NCBI GenBank assembly: GCA_030148705.1 | Contig: JASBSY010000014.1 | Location: 248,001-312,000 of the forward strand | Reading direction: 5' to 3' | Source: Pukyongia sp. | Lineage (GTDB): Bacteria > Bacteroidota > Bacteroidia > Flavobacteriales > Flavobacteriaceae | Length of the DNA stretch: 64,000 bases | Made by a program: the position numbers and the translations under genes | The notes under the pieces: generated by a model | What the model saw: only the letters and a program-made list of their open reading frames with translations | Databases searched by the model: none | What the model was told of the DNA's origin: nothing | In this document: in pieces, positions 30,706-38,190 of the stretch | Position numbering within the stretch: the stretch's first letter is position 1 | How the letters are laid out: each line of letters starts with the position of its first letter

Positions 30706-31686
30706 TTACTGTCTTTCCATTGCATATCGCTCTCCCTTCTTGTAGAGACCGTAGAGAACTACGAGAAACACAAAAAACAAGATTAGAAACAGCGGCACAA
30801 TTAGGCGTTTATTATCCCAAAAAGTAAAAGTAAAGTGCAGCTCCGGTGAATTTATAACAGTAACCACATTGTCATACTTAATTAGTTCTTTCCGAAGCAT
30901 TTCATTTTCGGAGATAAGGATGTTCTTCCATTCAATGAGCTGATGCAGATTGTTGTTTTCCTGCGATTTAAAGAATACCTGGCTGGGGTTGGGCTGACTG
31001 TTATTGATCTTGCCTACGTATTCGTCGAAAACCGCATCGATGTTCTCAATACTGGTTTCATTTTGTTTTATGCGATTCGTAGTTTCTGCAATCATCAGTT
31101 CTTTTGTCTGCTGGAAGATCTCATTGCTGTTCAGATAGGCCAAAACCTTATCCACAGTTTCCATACTGCCCTCAGCCGTGGTATAGACGAACATCTTGTG
31201 ATACTTGTATTCGGTATAAAAAACTTCCGAAAGTAAAATGTCTTCCTCAAAATCGCTCTGTGCAAGATACTGTTCAAGATTTCGGTCGTTGCTTTCCGAC
31301 TTCTCCATCAACTCCATGATATTCACGATAGGCTCTATCTCGATGGTTACCAATTCGGGCGTTTCGGGATTAAAACCGTAACGCTTCAGAAACCGACCAT
31401 CACCCTGTTTCATCTTGCGATTTAATAATTCGATTGCATTGTACACATAACTCGAGCTTCCAAAGTTATTCTGTACAATAAGTGTAGCTAATTTGTCCGC
31501 TTTGTGGGCCTTCTGCCAAAAATGACCGGCTATAACACCGCCAATTATCAATATAAGCAGTACGATCCAAAATCTTTTAACGAATTGAACCCCCTTATAG
31601 CCGGATACCAACAGACTGTGGTAACCCTCTTTCATTTTTCTGAAGACCAGGCCTAAATCAATTTCGTCATTGTGTTTATCGGTCAT
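30706..31686 (-). CDS. Wzz-like chain-length determinant protein
   Basis: This 326-aa polysaccharide co-polymerase has membrane helices near both ends (FWIVLLILIIGGVIAGHFW ~40-58 and LIVPLFLILFFVFLVVLYGLY ~295-315). A long periplasmic helical part lies between them (TKELMIAETTNRIKQNETSIENIDAVFDEY). It lacks a C-terminal tyrosine kinase domain and there is no Wza outer-membrane exporter in the operon, which fits O-antigen rather than capsule-type control. The sequence is divergent, so the family call rests largely on topology and position. Confidence 0.75.
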   Translation of the reverse strand: MTDKHNDEIDLGLVFRKMKEGYHSLLVSGYKGVQFVKRFWIVLLILIIGGVIAGHFWQKAHKADKLATLIVQNNFGSSSYVYNAIELLNRKMKQGDGRFLKRYGFNPETPELVTIEIEPIVNIMELMEKSESNDRNLEQYLAQSDFEEDILLSEVFYTEYKYHKMFVYTTAEGSMETVDKVLAYLNSNEIFQQTKELMIAETTNRIKQNETSIENIDAVFDEYVGKINNSQPNPSQVFFKSQENNNLHQLIEWKNILISENEMLRKELIKYDNVVTVINSPELHFTFTFWDNKRLIVPLFLILFFVFLVVLYGLYKKGERYAMERQ

Positions 31687-33967: not shown

Positions 33968-34984
33968 TTAAAGTCGCTCCTTATTGGCTAAATACCAGTC
34001 TATAGTTTTGTCAATCCCGGACTCGAAGGTTTCCTCTGCCCGCCAACCCAGATCAGTCTCGATCTTGGAAGCATCGATTGCATAACGAAAATCATGACCC
34101 GGCCTGTCTGTAACAAAGGTAATCTGATCTCTATAAGAACCCGTTTTAGGTTGCTTTCTATCAAGGATGTCACAGATAGTTTCAGCAATATACAGGTTTT
34201 GACGTTCATTTCGCCCTCCGATATTGTAGGTTTCGCCCAGCTCACCTTTTTCCAAAGCCAGTCTGATTCCCCTACAATGATCACGAACATAGAGCCAGTC
34301 TCTTACATTGCTGCCATCTCCGTAAATTGGTATCGGATTTCCCCCTATGGCTTTCCTGATTATAGTAGGGATTAGTTTTTCCTTATGCTGATTTGGCCCG
34401 TAGTTATTGGAACAATTGGTCGTTACCACCGGTAAGCCATACGTATGGAAAAAGCTTCTAACAATAAAGTCTGAAGACGCCTTCGACGCACTGTAAGGAC
34501 TGTTTGGAGCATACGGAGTCTGTTCGGTAAACAGCCCTGTCTCACCAAGGGTGCCATACACTTCATCGGTAGAGATATGTAGAAATCTCGCGTTCGAAAA
34601 TTCATCCTTAAGTTTTCCCGGGCCATCCATCCAGGTCTTATAAGCCGCCTGAAGTAGGTTAAAAGTCCCTACTATATTCGTTTGGATAAACGCAGCCGGA
34701 CCCGATATAGAATTGTCAACATGCGATTCGGCCGCAAAATGAACCACGCGGGTAAACTTATGTGTTTGGAACAAGTCTTCCACTAAACCGGCATCACAGA
34801 TGTCTCCCTCAATAAAATGATAGTTCTTATACGAGGAAGCAGCCTCCAGATTCCGCAAATCTCCGGCATATGTTAGCTTGTCCAGTACGAAAATCTCATC
34901 AGAAGTCGATTCTAACAAATAATCGACATAATTGGAGCCAATAAACCCGGCACCGCCGGTAATCAGTACATTACTATTCTTCAA
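33968..34984 (-). CDS. rfbB: dTDP-glucose 4,6-dehydratase
   Basis: This 338-aa SDR enzyme forms dTDP-4-keto-6-deoxyglucose. It has [20 protein letters not shown] (5-24), [35 protein letters not shown] (~132), the catalytic [10 protein letters not shown] (~158) and [17 protein letters not shown]. The start is TTG at 34984, two bases after the stop of the upstream 560-aa gene; no ATG is present near the conserved N-terminus. Confidence 0.97.
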
Positions 34985-34986
34985 AA

Positions 34987-36669
34987 TTAATTTTTAGGTT
35001 CATCTAAAATCTGTTTTAACATTTTTTCGGTGATGGCGTATGTAGGTTTCACCCCTGTTGTGCCTAATCCGCCTGAGGCCAATGTACTTCCGCTTTCCAA
35101 CGGATTATCGGAAGCATAATAGGCATATCTCACAGCAATTTTCGGGCTAATACTGCCTCTTATCCTGGAGGCCGACTGTATGGCCTTCTGATAGTGTGCC
35201 CCTTCCATTTCCAAACCAATCACATTCCAGGTAGAGGTGTTGAAAAACCTAAGGATATCGCGGTTCTGTAAGGAAGTTCCCAATACCGTGATCATGGTCC
35301 CCGAACAGACCTTCAAATCCACATCGTTAAAATCGGCCTTCTTCAGTTTATTCTTAAATGGGTAATTATCTGCTGTTCCCTCAAATACATGCGCATTCGG
35401 GATCATTATATCTCCTTTCTGCCCGTTTAAGATACCTGCTTTACCCATGATGGAAATTGAAACGATATTCAAATAATCTCTATTCCCTTCAGCTAAATAA
35501 GGCTTTAACAGCTCATCCATGGTCTCATAGGCCTGCTCTCCAAACGCATAATCCATTACGATGATCACAGGTTTGTCGGCATCGGCCACATCTCCCTGAA
35601 ATTCATAAAACTGTGCTGTGTCGAAGATTTGGACATCGATGTTCGTCCCGGAAGCATCCTCGATAAATTGCATTCCGTTGGCCAGAGCCTTTTTCCACAC
35701 CTTTTGCTGAAGTTTTAAGCTTGTGGAAAGGCTTAGTTTCTTATAAATATCCAGATCGGATAGATCCTTGAATTCAGTCCCAAGTGCCTTTCTCGCAAAC
35801 AAGCTGTTGAGCACGCTGTGCATATTGGCACTTATGATATGGAGGGGTCTATCCATGAAATCTGCATCTTTCAATGCCTTTTTTACCCGCAGTGCCCACT
35901 GCTCGCCGTGAATATGATGGCCCAGGCGTTCCCTGAGCACCGGACTGAAAGTAATTATACGCTTGTTCTCCTCAAGCACCTCTTCAATGGCCAGCTTCCC
36001 CAGATAGTAAATGATATTGAGGAAGCGGTTCTTAATATGCGGCGATTCGAAGTGAGGATAGATCTGGTTTACCTCTTCAAAGGTTCTACCCAGGAAATTC
36101 GCGGTGTGCGTAAGTGCTATTTCTTTGTCTTTCTGACTGAGATCCCGTTTTACCAATACGGCCTCTTCGAGTTTCTTCCAGTCTCTGATCACATCTCCTT
36201 CATCGTTTATCACGACCTGTTTCATGATCTTGTGCGATTCTATGTAAAGAAAGGTGAGGTGGGTAAGTATGTCGTAAATTTCCGAGCGACCCCTTGTAAT
36301 CTCTATGTTCATCTGCTCTTCATCTATACGATAGCAGTTTCGGCGGCGTTTGGGAGGGATAATCGGCTTAAAATGTGAGTTTTTATACCCTTCATCACTG
36401 GTGAGATTAATATACCTGCATTCTTCAATTCCGTAAGGTAATCGGTCTATTACGTAGAGCAACCCTTCCAGTTCGATCTTTTCGTCTGAAATAGACCCAT
36501 AGATCTCCGGACTAAGAATTAGCAGGGATTCGCGCAGGGTTTCCCCGGAAATACCCATTGGCTTGTAAAACCCACGGTTAAAGAGGTGGCGCATGGTAAT
36601 ATACATACGCTCTATGGCGCCGGAACTTTCCTGTGCCCTGGTTCTTTTATGTGATGCTGTTGGTCTCAT
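34987..36669 (-). CDS. 560-aa protein of unknown function (DUF6909-like) with nucleoside-phosphorylase-like C-terminus
   Basis: This is a soluble protein without signal or membrane segments. I recognise it only as a conserved Flavobacteriia family (DUF6909 from memory). Residues ~360-540 carry motifs resembling the PNP/UDP phosphorylase and nucleosidase fold: VSISIMGKAGILNGQKGDIMIPNAHVFEG, then a strand run and GLEMEGAHYQKAI, which resembles the DMEGAA ribose-binding motif. The N-terminal ~350 residues are helical and unassigned. It is the first gene of the polysaccharide operon, 2 bases before rfbB. A TATCTTTG box ends 7 bases upstream of the ATG, so the transcript would be nearly leaderless or translation may start later at ATG 36606. 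Confidence 0.75.
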   Translation of the reverse strand: MRPTASHKRTRAQESSGAIERMYITMRHLFNRGFYKPMGISGETLRESLLILSPEIYGSISDEKIELEGLLYVIDRLPYGIEECRYINLTSDEGYKNSHFKPIIPPKRRRNCYRIDEEQMNIEITRGRSEIYDILTHLTFLYIESHKIMKQVVINDEGDVIRDWKKLEEAVLVKRDLSQKDKEIALTHTANFLGRTFEEVNQIYPHFESPHIKNRFLNIIYYLGKLAIEEVLEENKRIITFSPVLRERLGHHIHGEQWALRVKKALKDADFMDRPLHIISANMHSVLNSLFARKALGTEFKDLSDLDIYKKLSLSTSLKLQQKVWKKALANGMQFIEDASGTNIDVQIFDTAQFYEFQGDVADADKPVIIVMDYAFGEQAYETMDELLKPYLAEGNRDYLNIVSISIMGKAGILNGQKGDIMIPNAHVFEGTADNYPFKNKLKKADFNDVDLKVCSGTMITVLGTSLQNRDILRFFNTSTWNVIGLEMEGAHYQKAIQSASRIRGSISPKIAVRYAYYASDNPLESGSTLASGGLGTTGVKPTYAITEKMLKQILDEPKN

Positions 36670-36693: not shown

Positions 36694-38190
36694 TTATGGT
36701 TGAATCCTGTACAAGCCCTCTGCTATCTTACGGTCGTTGGAAAGACGTGGCACTTTGTTCTGTCCTCCAAGTTTACCCTGCGACTTCATCAAGCTGTTAA
36801 AGCTATCCTTCGCCAGCACCTTTATCTTTAAGGGCTGGAGAATTTTTCCCTGTATAAGATCATAATAGTAACTGTTCTGATCCTGCATAGCCTTGTCCAG
36901 GGAATTTTCAACTGCTTCCAGGTTGTCCGGTGGGCGTTCGAATTCTACAAGCCATTCGTGGTAAGGCAGTTCCCCGTCATTTACCTGGGTCATGGGAGCC
37001 ACTGTAAACTCTGAAATGGAGAAGCCGTGTTGCTCTTGTGCCTGCTGCATGGCTTCTTCTACCTCTTTTCCTATAACATGTTCGCCAAAAGCCGAAATAA
37101 AGTGCTTAATCCTGCCGGAAACCACCACCCGGTAGGGATTTAGAGAGGTGAATTGTACCGTATCGCCCAGGTTGTACGCCCACAGCCCTGCGTTGTTTGA
37201 AACAATCATCACATAATTTACCCCTATTTCTACCTCGGCGATCGTGATCCTGGGCGGGTTCTCCTCGTAGAAATACTGTGCTTCAACAAATTCATAGAAA
37301 ATCCCCGAATTAAGTAACAACAACATGCCTTTCACATCCTGTTTGTCCTGGAAGGCGAAGAATCCTTCACTGGCGGGGTACAATTCGATACTATCCACTT
37401 TCCTGCCGATAAGTGCTTCAAACTTGGCCCGGTAAGGTTCGTAGTTTACGCCCCCGTAAATAAACAGATTGAAGTTTTTGAAGAGATCACCAATTTTTTT
37501 CCCGGATCGCTGTTGAAGTTTTTCAAAGTACATCTGTACCCAGGATGGAATGCCTCCAATAATGGTCATATCCTCATTCATAGTCTCCTTTACCACGGCA
37601 TCGACCTTGGTTTCCCAATCCTCGATACAGTTCGTCTCCCAGCTTGGCAACCTGTTTTTCTGAAGATATCCCGGCACGTAATGAGCTGCTATTCCGGACA
37701 AGCGGCCTACTTTAATCCCGTTCTTTTCCTTTAGTTCCGGGCTCCCCTGCAGGAATATCATCTTTCCGTCCACTAATTCGCTGTTCCCTGTTTCATCAAT
37801 GTATAACAGTATGGCATCGCGGGCGGCGTTGATATGATTTGGCATGGAATCGGCCGTTAACGGAATATACTTAGCGCCAGAAGTGGTGCCGGATGTTTTT
37901 GCAAAATAAAGTGGTTTGCCCGGCCAGAGTACGTTGTCCTCACCGTTTAATACCTGCTCTATGTATGGTTTTAACGCTTCGTAGTCGCGTATGGGCACCT
38001 TTTCCGCAAAATTCTTATAGCTGCGTATCCCTTCAAAGCCATGGTCCTGCCCGAAGCTGGTGTTTTTCGCCTTTTCAATAAGTTTTTCGAATACTTTTTG
38101 CTGAGTAATTACAGGGTTTCGGGCCCAGGCATAGGTACGATAGGATACGATCTTTGCAAAAATACGGCCGGCTAGTGCTTTTAGTGACAT
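36694..38190 (-). CDS. GH3 family acyl-adenylating protein
   Basis: This 498-aa member of the GH3 family (named after plant auxin-responsive genes) is part of the ANL superfamily of ATP-dependent adenylating enzymes, which join a carboxylate to an amine. The adenylation loop FAKTSGTTSGAKYIPLT (~92-108) is intact. ELYPASEGFFAFQD (~275) and NLGDTVQFTSLNPYRVVVSGR with IKHFISAFGEHVIG (~335-375) are also present. Bacterial GH3 proteins are frequent in Bacteroidota, but their substrates are mostly unknown. It lies 6 bases after the M23 peptidase gene and 24 before the polysaccharide operon. Confidence 0.9.
   Translation of the reverse strand: MSLKALAGRIFAKIVSYRTYAWARNPVITQQKVFEKLIEKAKNTSFGQDHGFEGIRSYKNFAEKVPIRDYEALKPYIEQVLNGEDNVLWPGKPLYFAKTSGTTSGAKYIPLTADSMPNHINAARDAILLYIDETGNSELVDGKMIFLQGSPELKEKNGIKVGRLSGIAAHYVPGYLQKNRLPSWETNCIEDWETKVDAVVKETMNEDMTIIGGIPSWVQMYFEKLQQRSGKKIGDLFKNFNLFIYGGVNYEPYRAKFEALIGRKVDSIELYPASEGFFAFQDKQDVKGMLLLLNSGIFYEFVEAQYFYEENPPRITIAEVEIGVNYVMIVSNNAGLWAYNLGDTVQFTSLNPYRVVVSGRIKHFISAFGEHVIGKEVEEAMQQAQEQHGFSISEFTVAPMTQVNDGELPYHEWLVEFERPPDNLEAVENSLDKAMQDQNSYYYDLIQGKILQPLKIKVLAKDSFNSLMKSQGKLGGQNKVPRLSNDRKIAEGLYRIQP

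Follow-up and report, generated by a model that had tools for sequence, protein, structure and literature searches.

We found that a single-copy gene of the window (the whole stretch of 64,000 nucleotides analysed here) encodes a protein of Pfam family DUF6909 (PF21850), a family without an assigned function. On balance, the protein is probably a divergent nucleosidase acting on AMP (or NMP) in place of the AMN-like enzyme of family TIGR01721. The open reading frame (36669 to 34987, ATG start) is a genuine gene, and its product is a full member of DUF6909 (E 7.9e-60; 203.1 bits against a gathering cut-off of 27). It is probably a two-domain enzyme with a presumed cytoplasmic location, and comprises the following parts:

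34987..36669, minus strand: DUF6909 gene, 560 aa, single copy in the window's genome
35866..36669, minus strand: N-terminal ~268 residues, mostly helical in the AlphaFold2 model and highly conserved; Pfam assigns only DUF6909
34990..35850, minus strand: C-terminal phosphorylase/nucleosidase-fold domain, ~residues 274–560, with a putative boundary

The AlphaFold2 model, computed on an alignment of 74 homologues (53–83% identity to the query), had a pLDDT of 92 and a pTM of 0.87, while a single-sequence prediction with a pLDDT of 32 was set aside. When the model was compared with the PDB by Foldseek, the Salmonella AMP nucleosidase came first (2guw_B; prob 1.00 and E 3.9e-8 over 505 columns). 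Next were MTAN, uridine phosphorylase, PNP and futalosine hydrolase, whose target TM values reached up to 0.70. There were 380 matches at E <= 0.001, and the best 50 of those 380 were all phosphorylase-fold enzymes. The viral fold library returned only giant-virus phosphorylases. The modelled C-terminal half, which appears to begin near residue 274, has almost certainly the phosphorylase/nucleosidase fold. The original prediction had read a nucleoside-phosphorylase-like C-terminus and had proposed a structure prediction as a check; the predicted model shows that fold, and the Foldseek matches together with the weak PF01048 matches of relatives (30 out of 74 members, best E 0.0015) indicate that the call was right. 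The 560-aa protein itself gave no match to PF01048 and so stays below the Pfam cut-off of that family. The superposition of the model on 2guw gave an rmsd of 21 Å, so either the domain arrangement is unlike that of Amn or the N-terminal domains differ. An Amn-type N-terminal domain was not found by Pfam or by this superposition, and no other family matched the N-terminal ~268 residues in our searches.

We obtained no NCBIfam match at E <= 0.1, nor at E <= 10, and the TIGR01721 model does not recognise DUF6909. Neither the protein nor its profile found anything relevant among the PDB sequences, and the PADLOC defence models, including those of anti-phage PNP-type effectors, gave no match at E <= 1. 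No homologues were found in phage sequences, and those on plasmids were limited to two Persicobacter megaplasmids (CP012860.1 and NZ_AP025295.1), which carry full-length DUF6909 genes with 57–58% identity. One genome had a second, partial copy, a 172-aa frame corresponding only to the end of the fold domain. DUF6909 was absent from the papers found by our literature search.

The two motifs on which the fold had originally been proposed, GKAGILNGQKGDIMIPN (residues 409–425) and GLEMEGAH (485–492), are present and are not due to chance: G409, K410, A411, G412, G416, E487, M488, E489 and G490 were invariant in the 74 homologues. Motif loss across homologues had been suggested as a further check, and we found the motif residues kept, with GKAG..GD, EMEG and SDNP invariant or nearly so. 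D521 and N282 were also invariant (74/74), and position 541 was K/R in 66 out of 74 sequences. The motifs and their proposed counterparts are:

35824..35826, minus strand: N282 (in HIISANMHS), matched by eye to Amn N205 as its proposed counterpart
35410..35445, minus strand: GKAGILNGQKGD (409–420), counterpart of GKCGGLK..IGD in AMN-like proteins
35362..35382, minus strand: EGTADNY (430–436), counterpart of EGTSNDY in AMN-like proteins
35257..35301, minus strand: GTMITVLGTSLQNRD (457–471), counterpart of the GTVYTTNRRVWE segment; R/K at position 470 in 72/74
35194..35217, minus strand: GLEMEGAH (485–492), with M488/E489 corresponding to the ribose/base-binding Met-Glu (M404/E405) of Amn
35101..35115, minus strand: ASDNP (519–523), with D521 corresponding to the catalytic Asp (D428) of Amn
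35041..35055, minus strand: GVKPT (539–543), with K541 as proposed counterpart of the phosphate-binding K436 of Amn

A profile-profile comparison had also been proposed originally. The DUF6909 and AMN-like profiles aligned GK.G..GD, EGT..Y, GT..T, EME and SD.P..GVK in the same order, with a modest score of 24.9 that none of 60 decoys reached. In particular, DYAFGEQAYETMDELL of DUF6909 was paired with NFGMGSPNAATVMDLL of TIGR01721, GKAGILNGQKGDIMIPNAHVFEGTADNY with GKCGGLKKRINIGDFILPIGAIRGEGTSNDY, GLEMEGAH with SIDMETAT, and ASDNP..GVKPT with VTDQPMIPDGVKT. The trimeric-PNP profile scored equally well (25.4), so sequence alone does not pick AMN or the substrate, while MTAN and hexameric PNP stayed at decoy level. 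The hhalign probabilities were low, as both alignments were shallow. When HMMs of four phosphorylase subfamilies were run against 1721 ORFs, DUF6909 was not clearly separated from unrelated proteins.

We then compared these residues with the active site of Klebsiella Amn, which comprises N205, W383, M404, E405, D428, R381 and K436 and also takes H188/Y189 from the neighbouring chain (PMC9584410). Distant structural relatives of Amn conserve only M404, E405 and D428 (PMC9584410). DUF6909 has the catalytic Asp and the ribose/base-binding Met-Glu of the Amn type, aligned with the AMN-like motifs, and M488, E489, D521 and N282 correspond to M404, E405, D428 and N205, respectively. K541 and R/K470 are plausible counterparts of the 5'-phosphate site (R381, K436) by motif order; N282 and K541 were assigned by reading the motifs rather than from superposed coordinates. 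W383 and H188/Y189 had no clear counterparts in DUF6909. We consider it highly probable that DUF6909 is an active N-ribosyl-cleaving enzyme. Its substrate would be AMP, and possibly further purine mononucleotides, hydrolysed to ribose 5-phosphate and the free base. In this scheme M488/E489 would bind ribose and base, D521 would donate a proton to the base, and the 5'-phosphate may be held by basic residues, for example K541, R/K470 and H251/H252. A dead or regulatory nucleotide sensor, in which the phosphorylase fold binds AMP or another nucleotide, could account for the large and strongly conserved extra N-terminal domain; it is quite improbable given that the catalytic-Asp and Met-Glu counterparts are invariant in all 74 homologues.

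The genomic distribution pointed to a function. DUF6909 was present in 27 out of 40 genomes of relatives, and DUF6909 and TIGR01721 never occurred together in any of the computed samples, with TIGR01721 counted at E <= 1e-30 in the class, phylum and order samples and above its cut-off in the relatives. In the class sample DUF6909 was found in 10 and TIGR01721 in 107 of the 149 genomes, and 117 genomes had exactly one of the two. The corresponding numbers were 10 and 94 out of 120 in one order, 10 and 7 out of 22 in another, 44 and 120 out of 297 in the phylum sample, and 21 and 3 out of 31 in the relatives. The hypergeometric P of zero overlap was 1.3e-6 for the class, 4.6e-8 and 0.005 for the orders and 0.03 for the relatives, values that overstate the exclusion since they ignore shared ancestry and some genomes are common to several samples, so that genomes are not independent samples. 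The two families alternate inside at least five families (f1, f17, f30, f77 and f129); in f17, 10 genomes had DUF6909, 3 had TIGR01721, and none had both or neither. In the window's own genome we saw no match to the AMN-like family and just two PF01048 genes. Since DUF6909 was confined, in our samples, to Bacteroidota genomes without the usual AMP-cutting enzyme, it probably takes over that reaction, and would stand in for the AMN-like enzyme in the Bacteroidota carrying it. Some Bacteroidota genomes had neither family, so members of the phylum can do without the function. We looked for in-place swaps of TIGR01721 by DUF6909 and saw none, as the neighbours differ between the families. It is possible, if somewhat short of probable, that DUF6909 is a further AMP nucleosidase architecture with its own N-terminal domain, repeatedly swapped with TIGR01721 across Bacteroidota and releasing adenine in much of Flavobacteriaceae. 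Separately, ~400-aa frames in phylum relatives (family f90 and others) reached no better than E 1e-41 to 1e-47 against TIGR01721, and may represent an additional kind of AMP nucleosidase.

A phosphorylase-fold N-ribosyl hydrolase or phosphorylase acting on another substrate (MTA/SAH, futalosine, NMN, or a modified or deoxy-nucleotide) is the strongest alternative, and an unlikely one. MTAN, uridine phosphorylase and futalosine hydrolase matched the DUF6909 model almost as well as Amn, and the window's genome had no TIGR01704 MTAN at E 1e-20. However, the exclusion was seen with the AMN-like family, with which DUF6909 also shares the EGT..Y motif, and MTAN was rare in the phylum sample (10 out of 297). 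Several genomes (G009, G025, G026, G032 and G133) carried MTAN genes alongside DUF6909, which therefore does not simply replace MTAN.

The gene neighbourhood includes:

36694..38190, minus strand: GH3-family (adenylate-forming) gene, constant upstream neighbour in Flavobacteriaceae
33968..34984, minus strand: rfbB (dTDP-glucose 4,6-dehydratase), variable downstream neighbour

The original prediction had placed the gene at the head of a polysaccharide (NDP-sugar) operon, where its product could recycle or sense nucleotides. A nucleotide-acting enzyme is likely, but a part in polysaccharide synthesis was not supported. The co-oriented rfbB gene does lie 2 bp downstream, a gap that had been given correctly, and is followed by rfbA, rfbC and rfbD, here and in some relatives. 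DUF6909 is not the operon head, however, since the co-oriented GH3 gene stops 24 bp before it, with an M23 peptidase gene 6 bp further upstream. GH3 was directly upstream in 78 out of 80 Flavobacteriaceae relatives, preceded by PGK, LysM/SLT, DUF4837 and M23 genes, while the genes downstream varied and rfb genes adjoined DUF6909 only in part of the family. No rfb gene or other recurrent neighbour was seen in 12 more distant genomes, except between close relatives. On these data the neighbourhood survey gave no support to the operon role, which we rejected as very improbable. DUF6909 is likely a stand-alone housekeeping (purine salvage) enzyme. GH3 enzymes release AMP, so the pairing with DUF6909 is suggestive, though lineage-specific, and the two may possibly form a conserved AMP-releasing/AMP-cleaving pair. 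Against OlsH (lyso-ornithine lipid synthetase) the GH3-family protein scored 394 bits, below the cut-off of 620. We also noted a 326-aa ORF in the rfb cluster (30706–31686, minus strand) that had no Pfam match at E 1e-6 and whose weak relatives (22–50%) turn up repeatedly downstream of DUF6909 elsewhere.

The proposed function is specific and cheaply testable, for a conserved single-copy gene found in most of the Flavobacteriaceae sampled. It points to a division of AMP breakdown between two alternative enzymes within a large bacterial phylum and, if true, would change the annotation of many genomes and the metabolic models of marine Flavobacteria.

Among known systems, the PF01048 enzymes (MTA/SAH nucleosidase, futalosine hydrolase, uridine and purine nucleoside phosphorylases) share the fold and the catalytic Met-Glu/Asp with DUF6909, but they are single-domain proteins and most DUF6909 members fall below PF01048 detection. 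Enterobacterial Amn (PDB 2guw, 1t8r, 7uwq) was the best Foldseek match and resembles DUF6909 in its two domains and its Met-Glu and Asp catalytic residues, whereas identity is ~12%, whole-chain superposition is poor (21 Å), and W383 and H188/Y189 lack clear counterparts. The AMN-like TIGR01721 proteins (PDB 1ybf) are mostly ~256–290 aa long and lack the ~270-aa N-terminal domain; they share with DUF6909 the phosphorylase-fold core and the motif order GK.G..GD, EGT(S/A)..Y, EME/DME, SD.P..GVK, and the distributions of the two families in the Bacteroidota samples are mutually exclusive.
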